Position numbers and translations under genes: made by a program. This document shows, piece after piece, positions 14,598-61,282 of a stretch of DNA of 64,000 nucleotides. Source of the stretch: Clostridiales bacterium (GTDB lineage: Bacteria; Bacillota; Clostridia; Lachnospirales; Lachnospiraceae); the NCBI GenBank assembly GCA_023663185.1, contig JAMPHY010000004.1, forward strand, positions 1 to 64,000, read 5' to 3'. Within the stretch, counting starts at the first letter, position 1. Each line of letters starts with the position of its first letter. The notes beneath the pieces were generated by a model. That model ran no database searches, had not been told where the DNA came from, and worked only from the letters and a program-made list of their open reading frames with translations.

Positions 14598-14623
14598 GAA
14601 AGATACTGTTCATAGTTATATAT

Positions 14624-14758
14624 GGCATGAACTCATATGTTTCCATGAGTGGCACACTTTCGTTCCGTGTAAAATCGCAGCGGTACTAAGCTCGAAAATA
14701 CCTCGCTAAGTACCGGCGTTTTACAAGGACCGCTCATGGAAACATATGAGTTCATGCC
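14624..14758 (+). repeat. 135-bp long palindromic element, copy 1
   Basis: Perfect 26-bp outer arms (14624-14649 with 14733-14758) containing CATATG enclose a core. In the core TGTAAAATCG pairs with CGTTTTACA (one bulge) and CGGTACTTAG-type segments pair around a loop with CTCG. The core from GGCAC to GGACC is nearly identical to copy 3 (23970-24106, inverted) and similar to copy 2 (23703-23848). The outer arms differ between copies but remain complementary. It lies between the GH3 and GH67 genes, where a folded transcript could attenuate or protect mRNA. Confidence 0.85.
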
Positions 14759-14812
14759 CCTAGGCTGTGAATAGTAACAGTCAAATACTAAGAAGGGAGT
14801 ACGAACACAAAC

Positions 14813-16846
14813 ATGGCTTACGAACAGGCGTGGCTCAATTACACATGCGGAACATCTGCTAAGGAGATTGCGAATCTCGAATATATATATGCAGACACAG
14901 AAAAAGACGAGCTCATAAATAACAGCATAAAAGAACTGCAGCTTGCCTTTGCGGGTATAAGCGGGCATGAGCTTAAAGTACGCCCCTTATCAGACGGCGA
15001 TATAGCGGAAATTCCGTTCGCCGCAAATGGAGCCGATACTAACATAGACTTAAAAAGCATACATCTTATAATTAAGGAAGGTTTGAAAGCGGAAGGCTAC
15101 AGAGTCTATGGGAAAAATGGCGGCATTATCATAGAAGCGTCCGACTCCAAAGGCGTCCTGAACGGAACTTTTGAACTTATCCGTCAGATTAAGATGGAAG
15201 CTCCGCTTGCAGATATGGACATATGCAAAGAGCCGGTTATGCCGCTTAGAATGTTAAACCATTGGGATAATATGGACGGCAGTATTGAGCGCGGATATTC
15301 GGGGGATTCGTTCTTTTTTAAAAATAATGAAATCATAGTAAATGACAGAACTGTCACTTATGCAAGGCTGGCGGCAAGCGTCGGGATAAACGCAGTCGTA
15401 ATCAATAACGTCAATGTGAAGGATTCTGCCACATGGCTTATCACAGACAGATATTTTGATAAGTTAAAAGCCATGTCCGAGATTTTCGCTGGCTTCGGAA
15501 TTAAGCTTTTTATGAGCCTTAACTATGCCGCGCCGGTTGAGTTGGGCGAACTTGATAGTGCAGATCCGCTGGATTTAGAGGTGCGCGAGTGGTGGAAAAA
15601 GCGAATGGAGCTTGTATTTAAGGCAATCCCTAATCTGAGCGGCTTCCTTATTAAAGCGGATTCCGAAGGGCGTCCGGGACCTTTTACATATGATAGGACT
15701 CACGCCGACGGAGCGAATATGTTAGCCGAGGCGGTAGAGGCTTACGGAGGAATCATAATCTGGCGCTGTTTTGTATATAATTGCAAGCAGGACTGGCGTG
15801 ATTATAAGACGGACAGGGCGAGGTCGGGCTATGACAATTTCATGCCCTTAGACGGCACGTTCAAAGACAATGTAATTTTGCAGATTAAAAATGGACCGAT
15901 GGATTTTCAGGTCAGAGAACCGGTACACCCACTGTTTGGCGGGCTGACCAAGACCAAACAGATGTTGGAAGTGCAGATTGCGCAGGAATATACGGGGCAG
16001 CAGCGGCATATATGTTATTTAATCCCGATGTTTTCTCAGGTTTTGCAATTTAGGACCTATGTGAAGGATAAGGACGATACGGTGGGAGATATCGTATCCG
16101 GCAGGACTTTTAAGCAGACAAACTGCGGTATGGCGGCGGTAGCGAATACGGGAAACGATGACAACTGGACAGGGCATGACTTTGCGGCAGCAAATCTCTA
16201 CGGTTTCGGGAGGCTTGCATTTGATACGTCTCTTACTCCGCAGGAAATAGCGAAAGAGTGGATTAATCTGACATACGGCACGGATAAAGAAGTGGAAGAG
16301 ATTCTTCTTAATATATTGATGTCTTCGTGGCCGACTTATGAGAAATACACGTCGCCGCTTGGCATAGGCTGGATGGTGAATCCGAACTACCACTACGGTC
16401 CGAACGTGGACGGGTATGAGTATGACAGGTGGGGGACTTACCACCGCGCCGACCATCTGGGTATAGGTGTTGACAGGAGCCATGACGGAACCGGATACGC
16501 CACTCTTTACAGAGAGCCTAATGCTGCGGTTTATGACGATAAGGAGAAATGTCCCGACGAGCTGCTTTTATTTTTCCATCATATTCCATATGCATGGAAG
16601 TTAAAAAGCGGCAAGACCGTAATCCAGCATATTTACGATACGCATTTTGAAGGCGCGGAAGCTGTAGAGGAGATGGCGCGCGAATTTGAGAAGCTTAAAG
16701 GGAAGCTGCCGAACCATGTATATACAAGGGTTATGGCACGAATTGAGCACCAGAAAGAACATTCAAAAGAATGGCGCGACAGGATAAACACTTATTTCTA
16801 CAGAATATCGGGGATTCCTGACGATAAAGGCAGAAAAATATATTAA
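14813..16846 (+). CDS. aguA: GH67 alpha-glucuronidase
   Basis: The 677-residue enzyme matches GH67 in length and motifs: LNHWDNMDGSIERGYSG, KADSEGRPGP, and LQIKNGPMDFQVREP. Glu285, Asp364 and Glu392 fall at the positions of the catalytic acid and the two base carboxylates described for Geobacillus AguA. GH67 enzymes remove 4-O-methyl-glucuronic acid from the non-reducing end of short aldouronic acids and act inside the cell; no signal peptide is seen here. AAGGGAG precedes the ATG. The downstream importer and uxuA/uxuB supply substrate and consume the glucuronate. It is separated from GH3 by a large palindrome, which may set the relative expression of the two. Confidence 0.95.
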   Translation: MAYEQAWLNYTCGTSAKEIANLEYIYADTEKDELINNSIKELQLAFAGISGHELKVRPLSDGDIAEIPFAANGADTNIDLKSIHLIIKEGLKAEGYRVYGKNGGIIIEASDSKGVLNGTFELIRQIKMEAPLADMDICKEPVMPLRMLNHWDNMDGSIERGYSGDSFFFKNNEIIVNDRTVTYARLAASVGINAVVINNVNVKDSATWLITDRYFDKLKAMSEIFAGFGIKLFMSLNYAAPVELGELDSADPLDLEVREWWKKRMELVFKAIPNLSGFLIKADSEGRPGPFTYDRTHADGANMLAEAVEAYGGIIIWRCFVYNCKQDWRDYKTDRARSGYDNFMPLDGTFKDNVILQIKNGPMDFQVREPVHPLFGGLTKTKQMLEVQIAQEYTGQQRHICYLIPMFSQVLQFRTYVKDKDDTVGDIVSGRTFKQTNCGMAAVANTGNDDNWTGHDFAAANLYGFGRLAFDTSLTPQEIAKEWINLTYGTDKEVEEILLNILMSSWPTYEKYTSPLGIGWMVNPNYHYGPNVDGYEYDRWGTYHRADHLGIGVDRSHDGTGYATLYREPNAAVYDDKEKCPDELLLFFHHIPYAWKLKSGKTVIQHIYDTHFEGAEAVEEMAREFEKLKGKLPNHVYTRVMARIEHQKEHSKEWRDRINTYFYRISGIPDDKGRKIY

Positions 16847-17040
16847 TCCGGATATAGTCGAAATAAGGGGATATATTGAGCAGAATGCTGGATTTATGCG
16901 CTATATAGAGACATACATTCATAAAAGTTGCACAATAAGTAAGCAAGATTTGAATGTGAAATAGCAATATATAACAAGAAAAACTCATCAAATTTGTGCT
17001 ATTATATAACCAGTATTAAATAATTATGGGGGTGTAAAGG

Positions 17041-17994
17041 ATGAAAAGTTCTAAAAAGAATGTACCTGCGACAAGCGGCAACAAGAACTTCGGCGTTTAT
17101 ATCAAGCGATATTGGCAGTTGTATGCGCTGTTAGCTCTTCCGCTGCTATACCTGTTTATTTTTAAGTACATACCGATGGTATATCTGCAGATTGCTTTCA
17201 AGAAGTACAGTATCGTTCAAAGCGTATGGGAGATGCCGTGGGCGGATAATCATGGATTTGAATACTTTATTAAGGCGTTTAATAATGGAGATTTTATAAG
17301 GGCGCTGCGCAATACTTTAGTGTTGAACCTGCTGGATTTATTTATAGGTTTCCCGATTCCTATTATATTTGCCCTGATACTTAATGAGCTGGTATTTAAG
17401 AACTTTAAGCGTGTAGTACAGACCATAGCTTATATGCCCCACTTTCTTTCATGGGTTATTATTTACGGTCTTGCCCTGCAGATATTTGCACCGACTACCG
17501 GTTTCTTAAATATGCTGATTACCAAACTGGGATTTGAGACGATTCCTTTCTTGAATGATTCAAATCATTGGGTGGGAACTTACATATTCTTAGGAGTATG
17601 GCAGAGCTTCGGCTGGAACTCTATTGTCTATCTTGCAGCTATTGCGGGAATCAACTCAGAGCTTTACGAGGCGGCTTCCGTAGACGGAGCGGGACGATTT
17701 GCGAAAATGTGGCATATAACGCTGCCGGGTATTCGCTCAACAATCGTAGTGCTTTTGGTAATGAGTCTTGGTAATATTTTAGGAAGCGGCTTCGACAGAC
17801 CATTCGCATTACAGAATAATCTGGTTATGGACGTGGCGGAAGTGCTTTCGACCTTCATATATAAATACGGTGTCAGGAGTCTGCAGTTCTCGCTGACAAC
17901 AGCGGTTGGTTTCTTCCAGTCCTTGATATGCGTTATCTTCCTGTTACTTGCCAACTGGATTTCACGCCGGCTTGGTGAACGTGGAATCTGGTAG
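17041..17994 (+). CDS. lplB: Sugar ABC transporter permease, LplB type
   Basis: A 317-residue CUT1 permease with six hydrophobic segments, beginning YALLALPLLYLFIFKYIPMV, and the EAA loop EAASVDGAGRFAKMWHITLPG for contact with the ATPase. It pairs with the YtcP-like permease 20 nt downstream and the lipoprotein after that. LplB-YtcP-LipO transporters sit in aldouronate utilisation loci of related Firmicutes, which fits the adjacent GH67. No ATPase gene is present; CUT1 systems often share an MsmK-type ATPase encoded elsewhere. The 194-bp gap upstream contains TATTATATAA-type -10 candidates but no clear -35. Confidence 0.92.
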   Translation: MKSSKKNVPATSGNKNFGVYIKRYWQLYALLALPLLYLFIFKYIPMVYLQIAFKKYSIVQSVWEMPWADNHGFEYFIKAFNNGDFIRALRNTLVLNLLDLFIGFPIPIIFALILNELVFKNFKRVVQTIAYMPHFLSWVIIYGLALQIFAPTTGFLNMLITKLGFETIPFLNDSNHWVGTYIFLGVWQSFGWNSIVYLAAIAGINSELYEAASVDGAGRFAKMWHITLPGIRSTIVVLLVMSLGNILGSGFDRPFALQNNLVMDVAEVLSTFIYKYGVRSLQFSLTTAVGFFQSLICVIFLLLANWISRRLGERGIW

Positions 17995-18014
17995 AAGGGA
18001 AAGGAGGAAAATAT

Positions 18015-18890
18015 ATGAATAAAGTTCGTTCAAGGTCTGAAAAAATAGGAGATTGGGTATTTATATTGATTTGCGTTATTGTCAGTCTGATTTGCGTTGT
18101 TCCGATGCTTAACCTTTTAGCCAAGTCTTTAAGCTCGGCGGACGCGCTGATTAAGCGTGAGGTGTATCTGCTGCCGAAGGGACTGAATTTTGACGCATAT
18201 GGCATGGTATTCGGTGATGCGAAATATGTACGCTCGTTCTTCTGGACCGTGTTCTTAACTGTTGTATGTACATTTGTATCACTGACAATGACGGCGCTTT
18301 GCGCATACCCGCTTATATTTGAGAAGTTAAAAGGACGCGGGGCAATCAATATTTTCATTACGATAACGATGTTCTTTAATGCGGGTACTATTCCTAACTA
18401 CCTGCTTATGAAGAGCATAGGATTTTTAAATAATCCGCTTGTACTCATTGTTCCAAGCTGTATGAGCGTATATAACATGATTATTATGAGAAGCTTTTTC
18501 TACGGTATCCCCGACAGCCTTAGGGAATCGGCAGAGATTGACGGCGCAAGCTTCTTTAGGATACTGGTGAGTATATATCTGCCGCTGTCCAAGCCGGTAT
18601 TTGCGACGCTTGCCCTGTTCTATGCGGTAGGAAGATGGAACGGTTACTCGGACGCATTGCTCTATATTAATAAAGAAGCGTTATATCCGCTGCAGCTTTT
18701 CCTGTATAACATACTTAACAATATGAACAGTGTGGAAATTGCGACGCAGGAAGGTTTTTCCTCGCCGGGACTTAGTGAATCGGTTAAAGCGGCAGTCGTT
18801 ATGTTCTCAACGATACCGATTTTGTGTATCTATCCGTGGTTACAGAAATACTTTATTCATGGCGTAACTATGGGAGCTGTAAAGGAATAA
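18015..18890 (+). CDS. ytcP: Sugar ABC transporter permease, YtcP/YesQ type
   Basis: A 291-residue CUT1 permease. The N-terminal membrane segment reads WVFILICVIVSLICVVPML, and ESAEIDGASFFRILVSIYLPLS is the EAA loop. AAGGAGG lies about 8 nt before the ATG. It forms the second half of the heterodimeric channel with the preceding LplB-type gene, and the pair is followed by the substrate-binding lipoprotein; the three genes are closely spaced and co-directional, hence one operon. Confidence 0.92.
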   Translation: MNKVRSRSEKIGDWVFILICVIVSLICVVPMLNLLAKSLSSADALIKREVYLLPKGLNFDAYGMVFGDAKYVRSFFWTVFLTVVCTFVSLTMTALCAYPLIFEKLKGRGAINIFITITMFFNAGTIPNYLLMKSIGFLNNPLVLIVPSCMSVYNMIIMRSFFYGIPDSLRESAEIDGASFFRILVSIYLPLSKPVFATLALFYAVGRWNGYSDALLYINKEALYPLQLFLYNILNNMNSVEIATQEGFSSPGLSESVKAAVVMFSTIPILCIYPWLQKYFIHGVTMGAVKE

Positions 18891-18950
18891 TCGGAATCTG
18901 TTTTACAGAATCCGTTCATTCAAATAAAACCAAATAGGGAGGTAAAAAAA

Positions 18951-20714
18951 TTGAAAAAGAAAATTTTGGCAGTAGTGCTTGCCTGTGCAATGACATTCTC
19001 ACTGGCAGCATGCGGCAACAACGATTCCGGAACAACTTCGTCTACTGATAACAATCAGACGACGTCTTCCGGTACGGAGACCACAACTCCGTCTACAGAT
19101 TCAGGCTCTACAGACGCCGGCACCACAGACGCCGGAACAGATGCAGCAGATCCGACAAACGGTGAAGTTGTTGATGGTAAGTTTGTAGACACAAGACACA
19201 TCACGGTAGAAGTTTATAACCGTGAAAACGATGGCGGTTCAGACCCGACCAACAACAAGTACACCAAGTATATTCAGGATAAGATGCTTGAACTGCACAA
19301 CGTAGAAGTTGAGTTTATCTCAGTTCCCCGTTGGACAGAGGTAGAGCAGATTAACAACCTGCTTGCAGCAGGCGATGCTCCTGATATCTGTGTAACTTAT
19401 GATTATGCAACAATTCAGACTTACGCTAACATGGGGGGGGTTCAGAATTTATGGCCTCATGTCGATACCTACAAAGATTTGCTTCCGAATATGTGGGAGT
19501 GGCTCGGTTCATTTAATATTTATGCTGATCAGGACCCTGCTAACAATGATCTTTGGGCTATTGAAGGCAAGCTGGCAGTTGCTAACCGTATCAATACTTT
19601 TGTTCGTAAGGACTGGCTTGATACATTAGGTTTAAGCGAGCCTACAACACGTCAGGAATTTGAAGATATGCTGATTGCTTTTAGAGACAATGCAGATACC
19701 CTTCTTGGCTCTGACGCAGACAAGATGGTTCCTTTCTCAATCAGCTACGATGTAGGCTGGAGAGCAGCTCTGTTGATTGAATCCAACATGGATCCTGATA
19801 TTACTGATTACGAATATTTCGTAAACGGTTTTGATGACAGAAAGCTTACCCAGAACGGAACAAAGGAAGCTATCCGCACATTGAACAAATGGTATAACGA
19901 CGGACTTATTTGGAAAGATTTCGCTCTGTATGGAAGCGGTGATACCACAGAGGACGATATGATGAAAGCCGGATATGTAGGCGCATTCATGCACAACTGG
20001 GATTATCCTTTCAGAAATGGTGAAGATTCTATTCAGACCAACCTTGAGAGACTTGTAGGTCCTGACGCTTGCTACGTTGCAGTTGACTGCTTCGAGGACA
20101 GCAAGGGAACACATACCAAGTTCGTAAACAGCTCTGTTGGTGATAGAAAGATATTCTTCCCTTCAACCAACGACGAAATCCTTGCATCATTAATGTATCT
20201 TGATTTCATCAGCATGCCTGAGACAATCGAGTACTTACAGATTGGTGATGAAGGCGTTACACACAACAAACTGGAAGACGGTGCAATCGAAGTTATCGCA
20301 GCTACAGGCGACGATATCCAGAACTCAGGCTTCAACATTGATTACACAATCACATGTAACGGTCTGCATCTGGTAGATCCTGATGTAACAGCAAGGTCAA
20401 CAGCTCATACCTATTCCGGTATTGCTACTGAACTTGTTGAGAAGGCTAATACAATCGCTAATACAGATACACGTTCATTTGCTCCTGTAAACGTAGGCGA
20501 GATTAAGTCTGCTGAAGGTCAGGGCGAGGCTCTTTCAAGTAAGAGAGACGTTATTCTGGACAATGCAGTTGTAACTTCTACTGACAATTTCGATAAGGTA
20601 TGGGACGATGGCATGGCTGATTACTTAAGCTCAGGCGGTCAGGCAATTATGGACGAACGTGCTGAGAAGTGGAAAGCTACATTCGGCGACGCAACATCAC
20701 TTCCTAACAACTAA
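18951..20714 (+). CDS. Extracellular sugar-binding lipoprotein of the ABC importer
   Basis: A 587-residue solute-binding protein. The signal peptide MKKKILAVVLACAMTFSLAAC has a lipobox with lipidated Cys21, followed by a Ser/Thr/Asp-rich linker (about 25-65) and a family-1-type binding domain (LipO/LplA-like). The start is TTG at 18951 behind GGGAGG. It would capture oligosaccharides, probably aldouronates judging by GH67 context, and hand them to the two upstream permeases. Codon use is smoother and less AT-biased than the neighbours, as expected of a highly expressed gene. A G8 run at 19433-19440 is in frame here. Confidence 0.9.
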   Translation: MKKKILAVVLACAMTFSLAACGNNDSGTTSSTDNNQTTSSGTETTTPSTDSGSTDAGTTDAGTDAADPTNGEVVDGKFVDTRHITVEVYNRENDGGSDPTNNKYTKYIQDKMLELHNVEVEFISVPRWTEVEQINNLLAAGDAPDICVTYDYATIQTYANMGGVQNLWPHVDTYKDLLPNMWEWLGSFNIYADQDPANNDLWAIEGKLAVANRINTFVRKDWLDTLGLSEPTTRQEFEDMLIAFRDNADTLLGSDADKMVPFSISYDVGWRAALLIESNMDPDITDYEYFVNGFDDRKLTQNGTKEAIRTLNKWYNDGLIWKDFALYGSGDTTEDDMMKAGYVGAFMHNWDYPFRNGEDSIQTNLERLVGPDACYVAVDCFEDSKGTHTKFVNSSVGDRKIFFPSTNDEILASLMYLDFISMPETIEYLQIGDEGVTHNKLEDGAIEVIAATGDDIQNSGFNIDYTITCNGLHLVDPDVTARSTAHTYSGIATELVEKANTIANTDTRSFAPVNVGEIKSAEGQGEALSSKRDVILDNAVVTSTDNFDKVWDDGMADYLSSGGQAIMDERAEKWKATFGDATSLPNN

Positions 20715-20748
20715 GAAGTAGAATTAAGCAGTAAAAAATAAGCAGATA

Positions 20749-20777
20749 AGGGGCGTTCCTTGTGGAGCGCCTCTTTT
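20749..20777 (+). terminator. Rho-independent terminator of the ABC importer operon
   Basis: AGGGGCGTTCC pairs with GGAGCGCCTCT (one T-G and near-perfect otherwise) around TTGT, followed by TTTTT. Confidence 0.85.
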
Positions 20778-20820
20778 TAAAAAAGAAATGGTTTTCTGAT
20801 AAATCTTTTTGAAAAAGGTA

Positions 20821-20829
20821 TGTTATAAT
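20821..20829 (+). promoter_or_regulatory. Extended -10 promoter upstream of uxuA
   Basis: TGTTATAAT (TG, one base, consensus TATAAT) lies between the importer terminator and uxuA. A -35 box is not obvious, which extended -10 promoters can tolerate. Confidence 0.55.
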
Positions 20830-20890
20830 AAGAAATGTAGCTGTGAAGATACTGAAAAGATACAAAAATAAAAGAAAGGAATTAAACAAT

Positions 20891-21958
20891 ATGGAAATGA
20901 CATTGCGCTGGTACGGCTCAAAATTTGACACTGTAACTTTGGAACAGATAAGGCAGATTCCCGGAGTGAAGGGAATTATCACCACTCTTTATGATACGCA
21001 GCCCGGCGAAGTATGGCAGACAGAACGTATCAGAGCCATGAAAAAAGAAGTCGAGGCGGCAGGCATGCACATCGCCGGAATAGAAAGCGTCAACATACAT
21101 GACGCAATCAAAGTCGGTTCTGCCGACAGGGATACATATATTGATAATTATATTGAGACGCTTGAAAATTTGGGAAAAGAAGATATACACATGGTATGCT
21201 ATAATTTCATGCCTGTATTTGACTGGACAAGAACTGAGCTTGCGCGTAAAAGAGAGGACGGCTCGACGGTGCTTGCATATACACAGGAAGCGGTGGACGC
21301 CTTAGTTCCTGAAAAGATGTTTGAGTCTATCGCAGGCGACGCAAACGGAAGCATTATGCCGGGCTGGGAACCTGAGCGTATGGAGCATGTAAAAGAACTT
21401 TTTGATATGTATAAGGACGTGGACGATGAGAAGCTTTTTGAAAATCTCAAGTATTTTCTTGAGCGTATTATGCCGGTCTGCGATAAATATGATATAAATA
21501 TGGCCATTCACCCCGATGATCCCGCGTGGAGCGTATTTGGGCTTCCGCGTATTATTATAAATAAGAAAAATATACTTAGAATGATGAAGATGGTAGACAA
21601 TCCGCACAACGGCGTGACGTTCTGCTCCGGCTCTTACGGCACCAACCTTGAGAACGACTTGCCGGACATGATTCGCTCACTGAAAGGCAGAATCCATTTT
21701 GCGCATGTGCGCAACCTTAAGTTCCATTCACCGACTAATTTTGAAGAGTCGGCGCATCTTTCAAGCGACGGCAGCTTCGATATGTACGAGATTATGAAAG
21801 CCTTGTACGATATAGGGTTTGATGGACCTATTCGCCCCGACCACGGAAGAATGATATGGGGCGAGAAGGCAATGCCTGGCTACGGACTCTATGATAGGGC
21901 GCTGGGCGCGGCGTATTTGAATGGGTTGTGGGAAGCGATAGAGAAGAGTGCGAAATAG
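20891..21958 (+). CDS. uxuA: Mannonate dehydratase
   Basis: The 355-residue product begins MEMTLRWYGSKFDTVTLEQIRQ and carries the UxuA segments PGVKGIITTLYDTQPGEVW, CYNFMPVFDWTRTEL, NMAIHPDDPAW, FCSGSYG, HFAHVRN and RPDHGRMIWGE, which include the His and Cys metal ligands. It dehydrates D-mannonate to 2-keto-3-deoxygluconate in glucuronate catabolism. ATG 20891 follows AAAGGA; the longer frame from 20843 starts with a Lys-rich stretch and has no site. uxuB follows on the same strand. Uronate isomerase (uxuC) is not in this window. Confidence 0.95.
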   Translation: MEMTLRWYGSKFDTVTLEQIRQIPGVKGIITTLYDTQPGEVWQTERIRAMKKEVEAAGMHIAGIESVNIHDAIKVGSADRDTYIDNYIETLENLGKEDIHMVCYNFMPVFDWTRTELARKREDGSTVLAYTQEAVDALVPEKMFESIAGDANGSIMPGWEPERMEHVKELFDMYKDVDDEKLFENLKYFLERIMPVCDKYDINMAIHPDDPAWSVFGLPRIIINKKNILRMMKMVDNPHNGVTFCSGSYGTNLENDLPDMIRSLKGRIHFAHVRNLKFHSPTNFEESAHLSSDGSFDMYEIMKALYDIGFDGPIRPDHGRMIWGEKAMPGYGLYDRALGAAYLNGLWEAIEKSAK

Positions 21959-22042
21959 CAGCGAATATGTTATGTAAATCGAATGCTGTATGAGCGAGAT
22001 ATTATGTAAATGAGATGTTATGTAAACATAGATGGAGGTTCT

Positions 22043-23656
22043 ATGATGAGATTAAATGAGGAAGGTTTAAAAAATCGTACACAGTGGGAAGACGCAGGAT
22101 ATGCGCTGCCGCAGTTTGACAGAGAGAAGATGGTGAAAGAAACCGCGCAGAATCCATTCTGGATTCATTTTGGCGCAGGTAATATTTTCCGTGCTTTTCA
22201 GGCTAATGTCGTACAAAACCTGTTAAATCAGGGAGATTTGGCATGCGGTCTGGTAGCCGTGGAAGGCTTCGACTATGAGATTATCGAGAAGATGTATAAG
22301 CCGCATGATAATTACGGTATTCTGGTAACGCTCAAGGCGGACGGCAATGTTGAGAAGACGGTTGTAGGAAGCATAGCGGAATCATATACGCTTAATTCTG
22401 CGAATGAGAAAGAATTTACGCGCCTGAAAGAGATTTTCTGTAAAAGCTCCTTACAGATGGCGACATTTACCATTACTGAAAAGGGCTACAGCCTTGTGAA
22501 CGGTAAGGGCGAATTGCTTAAAGACGTGGAAGAGGACTTTGCAAACGGTCCTGATAAGCCGAACAGCTACATTGGAAAAGTAGTGTCTTTGCTTTACGCG
22601 CGTTATAAAGACGGGGCTAAGCCGCTTGCTATGGTGAGCATGGACAACTGCTCGCACAATGGCGATAAACTCTATGCGGCGGTTAATGCTTTTGCAGAGG
22701 CATGGACGAAAGCAGGACTTGCTGAAGAAGGCTTCCTTAAATATGTAAACGATAGTGCGAAAGTGTCATTCCCGTGTACTATGATAGATAAGATAACGCC
22801 CAGACCTGATGCGTCCGTGGAAGATATTCTTAAAAAAGACGGGGTGGAAGAGCTTGAGCCTGTGGTTACGTCCAAGAATACCTATGTGGCTCCGTTTGTA
22901 AACGCCGAAGAATGCGAGTATTTAGTGATAGAAGACTCATTTCCAAACGGCAGGCCGTGTCTGGAAAAGGGCGGCTTCATGTTTACGACGAGAGAGACCG
23001 TGGATAAGGTTGAAAGAATGAAGGTCTGCACCTGCTTAAATCCGCTGCATACCACGCTTGCCGTATACGGCTGCCTGCTCGGATACACCAAAATATCCGA
23101 AGAAATGAAGGACGCACAGCTTCGCAGGCTCGTGGAAATCATCGGCTATACGGAAGGACTGCCGGTAGTGGTTAATCCTAAAATCATAGAGCCGAAGGAA
23201 TTTATCGACACAGTGCTTAACGTGCGTATACCGAATCCCTTTATGCCGGATACCCCGCAGCGAATTGCCACCGATACCTCGCAGAAACTTGCAATCCGTT
23301 TCGGTGAGACTATTAAAGCGTATAAAGCGTCGGATAGTCTTGACGTAAAGGAACTTAAGTTTATTCCACTGGTGTTTGCGGGCTGGCTGCGCTATTTGAT
23401 GGGGATAAACGATAACGGTGAAAAGTTTGAGTTAAGCCCTGATCCGCTGCTTGCTACGGTGTGCCCGTATGTTGAGGGGATAAAATTAGGCGACCATGTA
23501 GAAACTGACAAGCTGAAAGAGGTTCTTGCCAATGAAAAGATTTTCGGTGTGAATTTATATGACGTCGGAATGGCGGAAACGGTTATGGGGTATTTTAACG
23601 AACTGATAGCAGGAGTGGGGGCTGTTAGAGGGGTTTTGGAGAGGTATGTGAAATAA
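22043..23656 (+). CDS. uxuB: Fructuronate reductase (mannitol dehydrogenase family)
   Basis: The 537-residue product has the polyol dehydrogenase layout: FWIHFGAGNIFRAFQ is the NAD(P)-binding Rossmann loop (about residues 43-57), SMDNCSHNGDKL follows, and CLNPLHTTLAVYGCLLGY contains the conserved Asn/His of the catalytic region. It reduces fructuronate to mannonate, the step before UxuA. Two adjacent ATGs at 22043/22046 follow GGAGG; the in-frame start at 22010 is unlikely. It probably shares the uxuA promoter across the 84-bp gap. The gene is followed by a palindromic element that may end the transcript. Confidence 0.92.
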   Translation: MMRLNEEGLKNRTQWEDAGYALPQFDREKMVKETAQNPFWIHFGAGNIFRAFQANVVQNLLNQGDLACGLVAVEGFDYEIIEKMYKPHDNYGILVTLKADGNVEKTVVGSIAESYTLNSANEKEFTRLKEIFCKSSLQMATFTITEKGYSLVNGKGELLKDVEEDFANGPDKPNSYIGKVVSLLYARYKDGAKPLAMVSMDNCSHNGDKLYAAVNAFAEAWTKAGLAEEGFLKYVNDSAKVSFPCTMIDKITPRPDASVEDILKKDGVEELEPVVTSKNTYVAPFVNAEECEYLVIEDSFPNGRPCLEKGGFMFTTRETVDKVERMKVCTCLNPLHTTLAVYGCLLGYTKISEEMKDAQLRRLVEIIGYTEGLPVVVNPKIIEPKEFIDTVLNVRIPNPFMPDTPQRIATDTSQKLAIRFGETIKAYKASDSLDVKELKFIPLVFAGWLRYLMGINDNGEKFELSPDPLLATVCPYVEGIKLGDHVETDKLKEVLANEKIFGVNLYDVGMAETVMGYFNELIAGVGAVRGVLERYVK

Positions 23657-23702
23657 AGTTAGAGTTATAGAGTTGGTTTTGGAAATAATTTAGGTTGTGG
23701 TG

Positions 23703-23848
23703 GGTATGGGGGCATATGTTTCCCTTTGCGGCACGCTCTCGCTCCGTGCAAAACGTAGCGGTACTAAGTTCAAAAGCTAAAAAACAGCTTTTTCACTAAG
23801 TGCCGACGTTTTACAAGGACCGCAAAAGGAAACATATGCCCCCATACC
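23703..23848 (+). repeat. 146-bp long palindromic element, copy 2
   Basis: 29-bp arms (23703-23731 with 23820-23848, one mismatch) containing CATATG enclose a core like that of copy 1: GCACGCTCTCGCTCCGTG, then GCGGTACTAAG, and CTAAGTGCCG before GTTTTACAAGGACC. The central loop differs and is replaced by its own hairpin, AAAAGCT...AGCTTTTT. It lies just after uxuB in the 476-bp gene-free region 23657-24132. Confidence 0.85.
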
Positions 23849-23885
23849 TTCTGTGTATTGAACAATTATTATTCACTTATTTACC

Positions 23886-23949
23886 TATTCGTTTATTTGC
23901 TTATTCATTTATTTGCTTATTCATTTATTTACTTATTCATTTACTCGCT
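23886..23949. repeat. Four 16-bp tandem repeats
   Basis: Consensus TATTCATTTATTTGCT repeated four times without spacers (23886, 23902, 23918, 23934), each copy differing by one to three bases. It sits between two inverted palindromic elements in a gene-free gap. No coding role is apparent; it could be a slippage-generated microsatellite. Confidence 0.85.
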
Positions 23950-23969
23950 ACTTATTCACAGTTGTTGGG

Positions 23970-24106
23970 CGGCATGGACTCATATGCTTACTCTTGAGGT
24001 CCTTGTAAAACGCCGGTACTTAGCGAGGTGTTTTCGAGCTTAGTACCGCTGCGATTTTACACGGAGCGAGAGCGTGCCTCAAGAGTAAGCATATGAGTCC
24101 ATGCCG
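23970..24106 (-). repeat. Long palindromic element, copy 3 (inverted)
   Basis: Perfect 30-bp arms (23970-23999 with 24077-24106), again with central CATATG. Read on the minus strand its core (GGCACGCTCTCG... to ...AAGGACC) is almost the same as copy 1, differing at a handful of transitions. Orientation is opposite to copy 2, 120 bp away, at the convergent end of uxuB and a minus-strand operon. Confidence 0.85.
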
Positions 24107-24132
24107 CATTCAGTTATGTATACTAACTAACA

Positions 24133-36434: not shown

Positions 36435-36556
36435 AAACATTTTAGTCCCGAACATTTATAAGTCGCATATCGGGGAGCGAACATTATTTGTAATCCTGAA
36501 CATTTATAAGCCGCATATCAGGAAGCGAACATTATTTTAGGAGCATTTCTGCCACC
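36404..36556 (-). ncRNA. cptI: CptI-type antitoxin RNA with two 48-nt tandem repeats
   Basis: Two direct repeats occupy 36446-36493 and 36494-36541 (period 48), sharing GAACATTTATAAG, CGCATATC and AGCGAACATTATTTT. Within each repeat the 5' and 3' ends of a short helix covary: CCCGA...TCGGG in one and CCTGA...TCAGG in the other. This supports a conserved RNA fold (hairpin or pseudoknot) as in processed type III antitoxins. The 5' end is inferred from the promoter at 36563-36591 and the 3' end from the terminator. Confidence 0.8.
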
Positions 36557-51316: not shown

Positions 51317-51400
51317 AAAATAGTTCGGAATTCATAACATACAGCGAATTATAATAGGTTTTGTGGTGACTCTTATTATAACTGAATTCCGAACTATTTT
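51317..51400 (+). promoter_or_regulatory. Leader hairpin of the loaP operon
   Basis: Perfect 18-bp arms AAAATAGTTCGGAATTCA (51317-51334) and TGAATTCCGAACTATTTT (51383-51400), with an inner TTATAATA/TTATTATAA pairing, lie right after the promoter. A second, smaller TTCCG/CGGAA hairpin follows at about 51424-51447. LoaP proteins are known to need a leader RNA hairpin to suppress downstream terminators, so this could be the recognition element or an attenuator. Confidence 0.65.
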
Positions 51401-51488
51401 CAATAAAACGTTTACTTTTTAGTTTTCCGTATAAAATGTTGGCGGAAGGCTTAATAAAGTACTGCTATTTTAGCATGGAGGTGACGCC

Positions 51489-54899: not shown

Positions 54900-55040
54900 C
54901 GCAAAAACTATTGACAAGTTATGAAAAGTAAACTAATATAGATAAGAATAGTTTGGAATTCATAACATGCAGTGAACTATGATAAATCTTATGATAATTC
55001 TTATTATAGCTGATTTCCAAGCTATTTTCAATAAAACTTT
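54900..55040 (+). repeat. Second copy of the loaP promoter-leader region
   Basis: CGCAAAAACTATTGACA onward matches 51273-51410: the same -35 TTGACA (54911-54916), 17-nt spacer and TAATAT (54934-54939), and a leader with AATAGTTTGGAATTCATAACAT and GATTTCCAAGCTATTTTCAATAAAAC, paralogous to the first leader hairpin but diverged (both arms changed in step at GTTTGG/CCAAGC, with a G-T or mismatch). It is not followed by loaP; the next readable sequence is a glycosyltransferase tail fused to LicD. Confidence 0.85.
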
Positions 55041-55074
55041 GAATTTACTGATTTGCGCGTTCGAATATTCAGGG

Positions 55075-59815: not shown

Positions 59816-59903
59816 GCCGATATAGATGCATGTAGTATTGATTAAGATGATATTTAATTTTTATGTATTATATGAGTTTAAATTGGATTGGAGATACATA
59901 CAA

Positions 59904-60080
59904 GTGAAAGGATATTTTGATAAGTTAAAAAGCGTTATAAAGAACCCGCGGATAATACCGTTGTATTTTATGAATAAAGGCATTTTGGATTGGCTTTCTG
60001 ATGAAAAATATTTGACATTACGGTATTATGTCTTAATTGGAAGATGGTTATGGAATCCAGCATCCGGGGCTAATAGATAG
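59904..60080 (+). pseudogene. Truncated TupA-like gene (N-terminal fragment)
   Basis: From GTG 59904, VKGYFDKLKSVIKNPRIIP and ILDWLSDEKYLTLRYYVLIGRWLWNP match the first 50 residues of the TupA-like protein at 60360, then the frame stops where the conserved NPxTFxEKLQW segment should begin. The rest of the gene is absent. Confidence 0.78.
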
Positions 60081-60235: not shown

Positions 60236-60359
60236 GGTGTATGCGATACGGGGAATGGGACTATATGTATCAGTATTTTCCTTGTATGCCTCTATTGTGG
60301 GTAAATAAAATTATCAGGTGATTAACCTTGAGAATCCTAATCAGATGGGAGAGATATAA

Positions 60360-61282
60360 GTGAAAAAATACATAGGTAAGTTAAAGAGAATTATTAAGAA
60401 CCCACGGATAGTTCCAAATTATTTTATGAATACGGGAATTTTTAACTGGCTTTCCGATGAAATGTACCTTTCCTTACGGTATTGGATAATAACCGGTAAA
60501 AAATTGAATATCGAAAACCCTGTGACTTTTTCTGAAAAATTGCAATGGCTGAAATTAAATGACAGAAATCCAATCTATACAAGAATGGTGGATAAATGCA
60601 CGGCAAAAAAGTACGTTTCGGAATTAATAGGCAGCGAATACATAATTCCGACATTAGGCGTGTGGGAACGGTTTGAAGATATAAATTTTGATATGCTTCC
60701 TAATAAGTTTGTGTTGAAATGCAATCATGATTCGGGGGGGCAATCGTATGCAGGGATAAAACCAGACTTGATTTGAAAAAGAGCAGTAAAATGATGGAAC
60801 ACCATCTAAAAGTTAATTATTTCTATCCAAGCAGGCAGCAGTCTTATAAGAATATAAAGCCTAAATTAATTGCAGAGGAATATTTGGAAGATATAAATGA
60901 TAAAGAAAAGAAGGGGTTATTGGATTATAAATTTTATTGTTTTCATGGGGAGCCAAAGTTTTTATATTTGTCACAAGGCTTGGAAGACCACAGGACAGCA
61001 AGGATTAGTTATGTGACTTTAGATTGGCAAAAAGCAGGTTTCTATAGAACTGATTATAAAGAATTTGAAGAATTGCCGCCGAAACCGGAACACTTTGAAA
61101 AAATGATTGAGTTGGCAAGGGTATTGTCAAATGGGCATTATTTTCTTAGAGTCGATTTTTATGAAGTAAACGAAAAGATATATTTTGGCGAGCTTACTTT
61201 TTATCCCGGCGGAGGAATGGCGCTGTTTGAACCGTTTGAGTATGAGCTTAAGTTTGGAGAAATGATTAAACTCCCTGTGTAA
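60360..61282 (+). pseudogene. TupA-like ATP-grasp gene, frameshifted in a G7 tract
   Basis: The 5' part (GTG 60360) reads to LPNKFVLKCNHDSGG and then goes out of frame into a stop at 60774-60776. Adding one base to the G7 run at 60734-60740 gives HDSGGAIVCRDKTRLDLKKS, which continues through LKPKLIAEEYLED... to HYFLRVDFYEVNEKIYFGELTFYPGGG and the end at 61282, a full-length protein of about 307 residues. So this is either a phase-variable gene in the off state, a true pseudogene, or a sequencing error in the homopolymer. Confidence 0.85.

Follow-up and report, generated by a model that had tools for sequence, protein, structure and literature searches.

What are the three long palindromes that recur in the first 64,000 nucleotides of contig JAMPHY010000004.1 (assembly GCA_023663185.1) of a Clostridiales bacterium of the Lachnospiraceae, and what keeps their fold constant? 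A preliminary description of this stretch, which we call the window at its full length, had proposed a structured mobile family. The proposal was borne out by the many copies, the independent paired changes in their stems and the wide occurrence of the family. With a probability of about 0.7, the palindromes are non-autonomous transposable elements that resemble miniature inverted-repeat transposable elements (MITEs) and carry a conserved fold.

All three palindromes were found where the preliminary description had placed them. In the following, G000 denotes the window's genome and G007 a sister species; R1 is a covariance model built from 35 copies, and R2 is a model of the core alone. The copies and their parts are located as follows.

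14603-14615, plus strand: left outer terminal repeat (ATACTGTTCATAG), decayed, of a composite unit round copy 1; the same repeat occurs with 8-bp target duplications in G022
14624-14758, minus strand: copy 1, arms and core; the favoured folded strand is the minus strand, and R2 matches 14641-14741 on it with 105.3 bits
14656-14663, minus strand: side mini-hairpin AC-GAAA-GT of copy 1, with a GNRA loop, assigned from the sequence and the GNRA tally
14765-14777, minus strand: right outer terminal repeat round copy 1 (CTGTGAATAGTAA on the plus strand)
23703-23848, minus strand: copy 2, with an extended apical hairpin; R2 97.9 bits; the orthologous place in G007 also holds a copy
23735-23742, minus strand: side mini-hairpin GC-GAGA-GC of copy 2, with a GNRA loop, assigned likewise
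23969-24107, folded strand plus: copy 3, with a compact apical loop; R2 109 bits; in G007 the left arm is partly kept and the rest is gone
24066-24073, plus strand: side mini-hairpin GC-GAGA-GC of copy 3, with a GNRA loop, assigned likewise

The arms were 97% complementary in copy 1 (14624-14652 with 14730-14758), 97% in copy 2 (23703-23731 with 23820-23848) and 100% in copy 3 (23969-23999 with 24077-24107). The motif GTTTTACAAGGACC, at up to two mismatches, occurred three times in the window; the shuffle mean was 0.33, and none of 100 shuffles reached three. The folding z-scores of the three copies were -12 to -14, and none of 200 shuffles was as stable. As the preliminary description had claimed, the elements lacked coding capacity: no stop-free frame of at least 150 codons spanned any of the 76 G000 copies tested (three of the 79 distinct copies lay too near the locus end). 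It had also held that CATATG and a distance of 27 nt from the arm end to GGCAC are always kept, which was true of the three window copies and failed family-wide. Nine of the 79 distinct G000 copies (L128-L130, L133-L138) had quite different arms without CATATG, and the copies of other species differed again. CATATG is thus a subfamily trait.

We searched for the core in the genome and in its relatives, as the preliminary description had suggested. Since BLAST from two copies scored 40 candidates each, the covariance models were used instead. R1 found at least 83 places in G000, with match lengths of 135-204 bp; this hand count, with strands merged, is a working number because scoring covered 150 of the 1479 candidates, one of the matches being partial and another shortened. 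The preliminary description had allowed that the core might occur only here; in the relatives sample, R1 matched 34 of 61 genomes, namely G000 and 33 of 36 genomes of the same genus, and none of the 24 from the order's other families. R2 matched 67 of 392 genomes and 32 of 173 genera in the order sample, with 10 candidates scored per genome, and all 67 belong to one family, by inference Lachnospiraceae. In the phylum sample, five of 398 genomes matched, four of that same family and one (G758) of another class. The G758 loci (L420, L425) had the same fold, with six matches in that genome and the loops of the family in the two copies read. A pattern scan of named genomes with one core variant gave at least 120 stretches; among the 80 matches listed, 70 were titled Lachnospiraceae and the other 10 Acetatifactor, [Clostridium] symbiosum, Clostridiaceae, Eubacterium or Bacillus. 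The contigs of L220, L223, L224, L226, L231, L233, L234 and L236 stopped 49-108 bases inside the terminal repeat; draft assemblies are therefore likely to be interrupted at the palindromes, and the copy numbers are to be read as minima.

Rfam gave no window match at the gathering score and none at E up to 1 on five diverse loci; below the gathering score, only generic miRNA hairpin models appeared. One exact core pattern had no match in viral contigs, and copy 1 with its flanks gave no match in plasmids and phages. A description of this palindrome family was not found in the literature searched, which lay mostly outside the subscription journals.

The stems of the core covary. An alignment of 48 cores from 30 genomes was built without structure, and the structure was drawn from one copy. 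Both sides changed in 33 of 37 pairs, and the covariation score was 0.487, compared with 0.185 (sd 0.009) for shuffles and at most 0.144 for slid partners. Arms that match without independent paired changes, the other outcome allowed for in the preliminary description, were not what we observed. At eight loci orthologous between G000 and G007, 27 of 414 pair cells had changed on both sides, all 27 Watson-Crick in both genomes, whereas 3.4 would be expected if the sides were independent; one-sided changes numbered 21. Two loci (L125/L173 and L074/L176) held 11 of the 15 arm double changes, which may reflect replacement by another copy. L023/L172, with an inverted core, and L130/L175, with different subfamilies in the two genomes, were left out of the count.

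That the family is mobile is nearly certain. In G017, G063 and G006, repeats of type CACGGAAATCAATTTTCAGTCAGC enclosed complete units of 210-241 bp. At up to three mismatches, this repeat occurred 65 times in G017, 65 times in G063 and 13 times in G006 and was absent from G000 and G007; a backward control gave none. In 23 units of these three genomes, the 9-bp flanking direct repeats had a mean identity of 0.67 vs 0.28 for mismatched flanks, and nine of the 23 had at most one mismatch (control fraction 0). The same units gave 0.39 vs 0.29 at 8 bp, with two of 23 at one mismatch or fewer, and 0.32 vs 0.27 at 10 bp, with none. Composite units of G022 with ends GTTACTATTCACGGC carried 8-bp duplications, with at most one mismatch in 18 of 19 and a mean identity of 0.94 vs 0.28, at places picked because their repeats paired. 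The preliminary description had also expected empty sites in relatives as a sign of a mobile family, beside many copies and covarying arms. The copies and covarying arms were found; clean empty sites were not found, and the target duplications stand in for them.

Eleven of the 19 composite units contained the core, seven were a 154-157-bp miniature element without it, and one was 67 bp. This separate miniature element (L403-L409) likewise had ends GTTACTATTCACGGC and 8-bp duplications. Within the 11 core-bearing units, the inner unit of 189 bp (187 in one) had its own ends, CAATGTCATTAAGTTAAG. At L393, L394 and L396 the 189-bp unit lay in the other miniature element's terminal repeat between exact 9-bp direct repeats; at L392 the inner-unit flank had one extra base, and the other seven inner units lay between two opposed repeats. 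The inner unit inside a composite unit indicates two nested transposon layers. Some of the G000 copies, window copy 1 among them, were flanked by the outer repeat in variably decayed form. Additional inverted repeats lay outside 46 of 172 elements, compared with one of 172 when flanks were swapped. The outermost arms are partly transposon terminal repeats.

An insertion sequence that shares the ends of the inner unit was found in G022. At L410, the inner-unit ends enclosed 1711 bp with an intact 436-aa transposase, which matched Pfam DDE_Tnp_1 (PF01609) at E 8.7e-18 and NCBIfam NF033592, IS4 family, above the cut-off. The sequence CAATGTCATTAAGTTAA stood at both ends of this insertion sequence (IS) and of the 189-bp inner unit. 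Relatives of the L410 transposase occurred at eight loci in five of 44 genus genomes; the end repeats were located by script at five of the eight and by reading at a sixth, L414, and the script could not assess L413 and L416. At L414 (1335-2914), an IS4-family IS interrupts the GNRA hairpin of an element copy and is bordered on each side by TTACGGAGCG. At L410 (3441-5159), an IS66-family transposase gene (PF03050) adjoins the IS4-family IS.

Other candidate partners or parents were rejected. A Y1 transposase was unsupported: Y1_Tnp had no match in the copy-rich genomes G000, G007, G017, G026 and G063 and was present in 15 of 41 genomes, with 16 matches in G022 and one in G011. No autonomous element with the G017/G063 repeat was recognised in 20 stretches round mostly unpaired repeats, eight of which stop at a contig end within the palindrome. 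A split copy as parent was sought with a 3'-half pattern at 60 G000 sites, and the sole site outside the R1 list (C32:5887) was a truncated copy. Distant inverted pairs enclosing a gene (L271, L264, L281), judged by eye, held frames like ordinary genes or no clear gene. The open reading frame (ORF) inside L219 presumably resembles an Rpn nuclease.

The core consists of a long arm P1, a short P2, a 2-bp side hairpin with a GNRA loop, P3, and P4 with tandem G.A pairs in most copies. Read on the strand of the preliminary description, the fixed loop is UYNC and the internal loop is UC/UC; at these places the complementary strand has, respectively, a GNRA tetraloop closed by a 2-bp stem and tandem G.A pairs. 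The loops thus favour the opposite strand as the folded one, and on this point the preliminary description did not hold. Among the 48 cores, the GNRA loop was present in 47 and the tandem G.A in 47, and the pairs flanking the latter exchange. In three alignments, the loop was located in 175 of 178 distinct cores (14 locations were ambiguous) and was GNRA in 173: GAAA 69, GAGA 41, GGAA 26, GCAA 18, GGGA 15 and GCGA 4, with GAAG and GAGC once each outside GNRA. The hairpin stem varied as GC/GC 156, GT/AC 11, AC/GT 4, GC/GT 3 and CC/GG 1. The tandem G.A was not located by pattern in 15 of 134 distinct cores, and some groups had plain pairs instead. With RNA energies, the opposite strand was more stable in 76 of 79 G000 copies and in 34 of 36 from other genomes, the copies being not independent of one another. 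These results provide good support for a constraint on the folded strand, which, as far as sequence can tell, is likely RNA rather than single-stranded DNA.

Parts of the element change in place. At the orthologous locus L023/L172, the core was inverted between its arms. The apical module was compact in G000 and extended in G007 at L078/L174, L026/L177, L020/L178 and L024/L183. Partial loss of copies by deletion was seen for window copy 3 in G007 and for L219 vs L165, and in G011 window copies 2 and 3 were both absent. Within one genome, the outer arms of copies with similar cores differed, yet they remained complementary. Two fixed positions in the core accept additional hairpin modules, as seen at L139 (G000:C32) and L121-L126: a 48-nt module and AAGACCACTTTCAGTGGTCT-like hairpins are inserted there, either one alone or both in the same copy. 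Copying of arms from the flank at insertion was hinted at by L130/L175; loss of an older copy explains the locus equally, and copying is not claimed. Subfamilies vary greatly in their arms and terminal repeats, and the conserved fold persists when arms and ends change.

The preliminary description had considered a placement at operon boundaries, and a tendency is what remained of this. Relative to its strand, G000 copies had neighbours (+,+) in 39 cases, (+,-) in 16, (-,-) in 12 and (-,+) in 10, with two incomplete, according to simple ORF calls that omit frames overlapping the element. Same-direction neighbours therefore ran in the gene sense on that strand in 39 of 51 cases; on the folded strand in other genomes (n=110), they split 42 (-,-) to 31 (+,+), beside 22 (+,-) and 15 (-,+). 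Neighbouring pairs of elements up to 1 kb apart were divergent on the folded strand in 21 of 25 cases, with three tandem and one convergent; this count includes at least one pair twice (L242, L344), and some of its pairs represent a single locus seen in sister genomes. Their gaps were 51-635 bp (for example window 23720-24088 and loci L240-L348). In one genome group, the pair members were two different subfamilies with similar 5' flanks. Shared neighbour genes, which we take to be pyrB, parA and moxR, recurred at varying distances, and none stood at a fixed distance.

Several further repeats were noted in the window: TTATTCATTTATTTGC-like units in tandem, lying between copies 2 and 3 (23869-23948), a 48-nt unit in two tandem copies, 88% identical (36440-36535), and two direct repeat families, one of 135 nt with 75% identity (59893-60027 and 60349-60483) and one of 111 nt with 78% identity (51319-51429 and 54947-55057).

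Taken together, the palindromes have the features of MITEs: they are short, non-coding and dispersed in many copies, in relatives they have terminal inverted repeats and fixed-length duplications, and in G022 they share their ends with an autonomous IS4-family IS of the same genome. They also have the covarying stems and conserved loops of a structured RNA class. We infer that DDE transposases encoded by IS elements would act in trans to move them, different ones in different hosts. The core would be kept because the folded single strand, likely RNA, does something that aids the persistence or spread of the element; protein binding and the shaping of read-through transcripts are possible examples. 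A further step, which we offer tentatively and regard as possible rather than probable, is a counterpart of short interspersed nuclear elements (SINEs) for DNA transposons. Such a parasitic structured RNA module would belong to no single transposon; it would swap terminal repeats, nest in miniature elements, exchange hairpin modules in place and survive through recognition of its folded RNA by the host or the transposition machinery.

Some results weigh against the MITE-like reading with a folded, probably RNA, core. Target duplications were weak in G000 and G007, where two to three of 27 units had at most one mismatch at 8-10 bp and flank identity averaged 0.37-0.39 vs 0.29-0.30; for G000's own copies, the case for mobility comes from their number and their decayed ends. 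A search at E 1e-20 gave no homologue of the G022 transposase in G000, G007, G017, G063 or G006 (other transposases were not searched for in G000), so the elements there would be moved by something else, or the partner has been lost or is unassembled. The GNRA tally came partly from cores retrieved by a model built on such cores, and GNRA is therefore favoured in it. The G017 copies had no strand difference in stability (13 vs 9 of 25). The mismatch types also disagreed. On the folded strand of the 48 cores, P1 arms had 16 G.U and 33 A.C, and all helices had 31 and 72, with 23 of the A.C at one pair with a fixed A. In G000, converted to the folded strand, the arms had 61 G.U and 30 A.C, and the core had 16 and 51. 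Pairs from folding either strand, likewise converted, gave G.U/A.C counts of 213/60 in G000, 45/40 in G017 and 88/51 elsewhere. Because these tallies conflict, we make no claim of an RNA wobble preference. A process acting on DNA may maintain the complementarity of the arms; the loops point to a folded single strand.

Such a process is the core of a purely DNA-based explanation, in which template switching or hairpin-directed repair corrects one arm from the other and a protein on a cruciform or on single-stranded DNA binds the fixed loops. The lack of a consistent G.U preference in the arms, the inversion of cores between arms and their loss of parts by deletion, and the outer arms that vary within one genome and stay complementary would all fit it, and GC-GAAA-GC and tandem G.A are stable in DNA too. 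Correction by itself, however, leaves loops free. The third base of every GNRA loop was A or G, which is the rule for RNA; in stable DNA loops it may be any base. The core stems also covaried as strongly as the arms, and we consider the DNA-only explanation rather unlikely. A structured RNA that serves the host, regulatory or antisense, and is spread incidentally by transposons would account for the retention of the fold even in genomes with few matches found and for the intergenic position of the 76 copies that passed the frame test. It would sit poorly with neighbour genes at no fixed distance, with a gene orientation that is merely biased and differs between genomes, and with a presence that varies widely among species, which makes it distinctly improbable.

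G000 copies often lie 10-40 nt past a stop codon, as bidirectional transcription terminators or stabilisers of mRNA 3' ends might. By eye, without a systematic scan, no T run was seen 3' of the hairpin in the copies read, and the core is much more elaborate than such a function requires; we give this explanation very little credence. Hardly any weight falls on REP doublets forming hairpins (REPINs) moved by a REP-associated tyrosine (Y1) transposase (RAYT), where REP stands for repetitive extragenic palindromic. High-copy extragenic palindromes are what the two have in common, but Y1_Tnp is missing from the five copy-rich genomes named above, and Y1 enzymes would not be expected to leave target duplications of a fixed length.

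Among known systems, the bcr1-bcr3 repeats of the Bacillus cereus group are described as structured intergenic repeats likened to MITEs; for bcr1-bcr18, about half of the copies appeared in transcripts (PMC3446304), and bcr1 is a listed stem-loop family (PMC2267715). The present family resembles bcr1-bcr3 as structured, intergenic and MITE-like, in another host group and by description rather than by compared sequence; a GNRA core, module exchange and changing terminal repeats do not appear in the passages of these sources on the bcr repeats. With IS4-family MITEs it shares non-coding sequence, terminal inverted repeats, 9-bp duplications and ends as in the intact G022 element; it differs in that the interior fold is conserved while the ends differ between species. 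As a rule, it is the ends that define a miniature transposon, and its interior is free to vary; the interiors of usual MITEs are less constrained than the one described here. REPIN and REP elements with RAYT are alike as palindromes, but here a fixed core carries variable arms. Rickettsia palindromic elements have conserved folding and lie within coding genes, unlike the 76 copies tested here, which no long frame spans. Integron attC sites keep the structure of a folded strand rather than its sequence; here the copies are dispersed and have terminal repeats and target duplications.

For the study of such elements, the covariance model reached copies that sequence searches missed, and the family provides a system in which paired changes are visible at orthologous loci of two close species. 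Over many genera of one bacterial family, these elements vary at their ends and keep the interior fold, and the question of why a mobile element without coding capacity retains a folded core thereby becomes testable.

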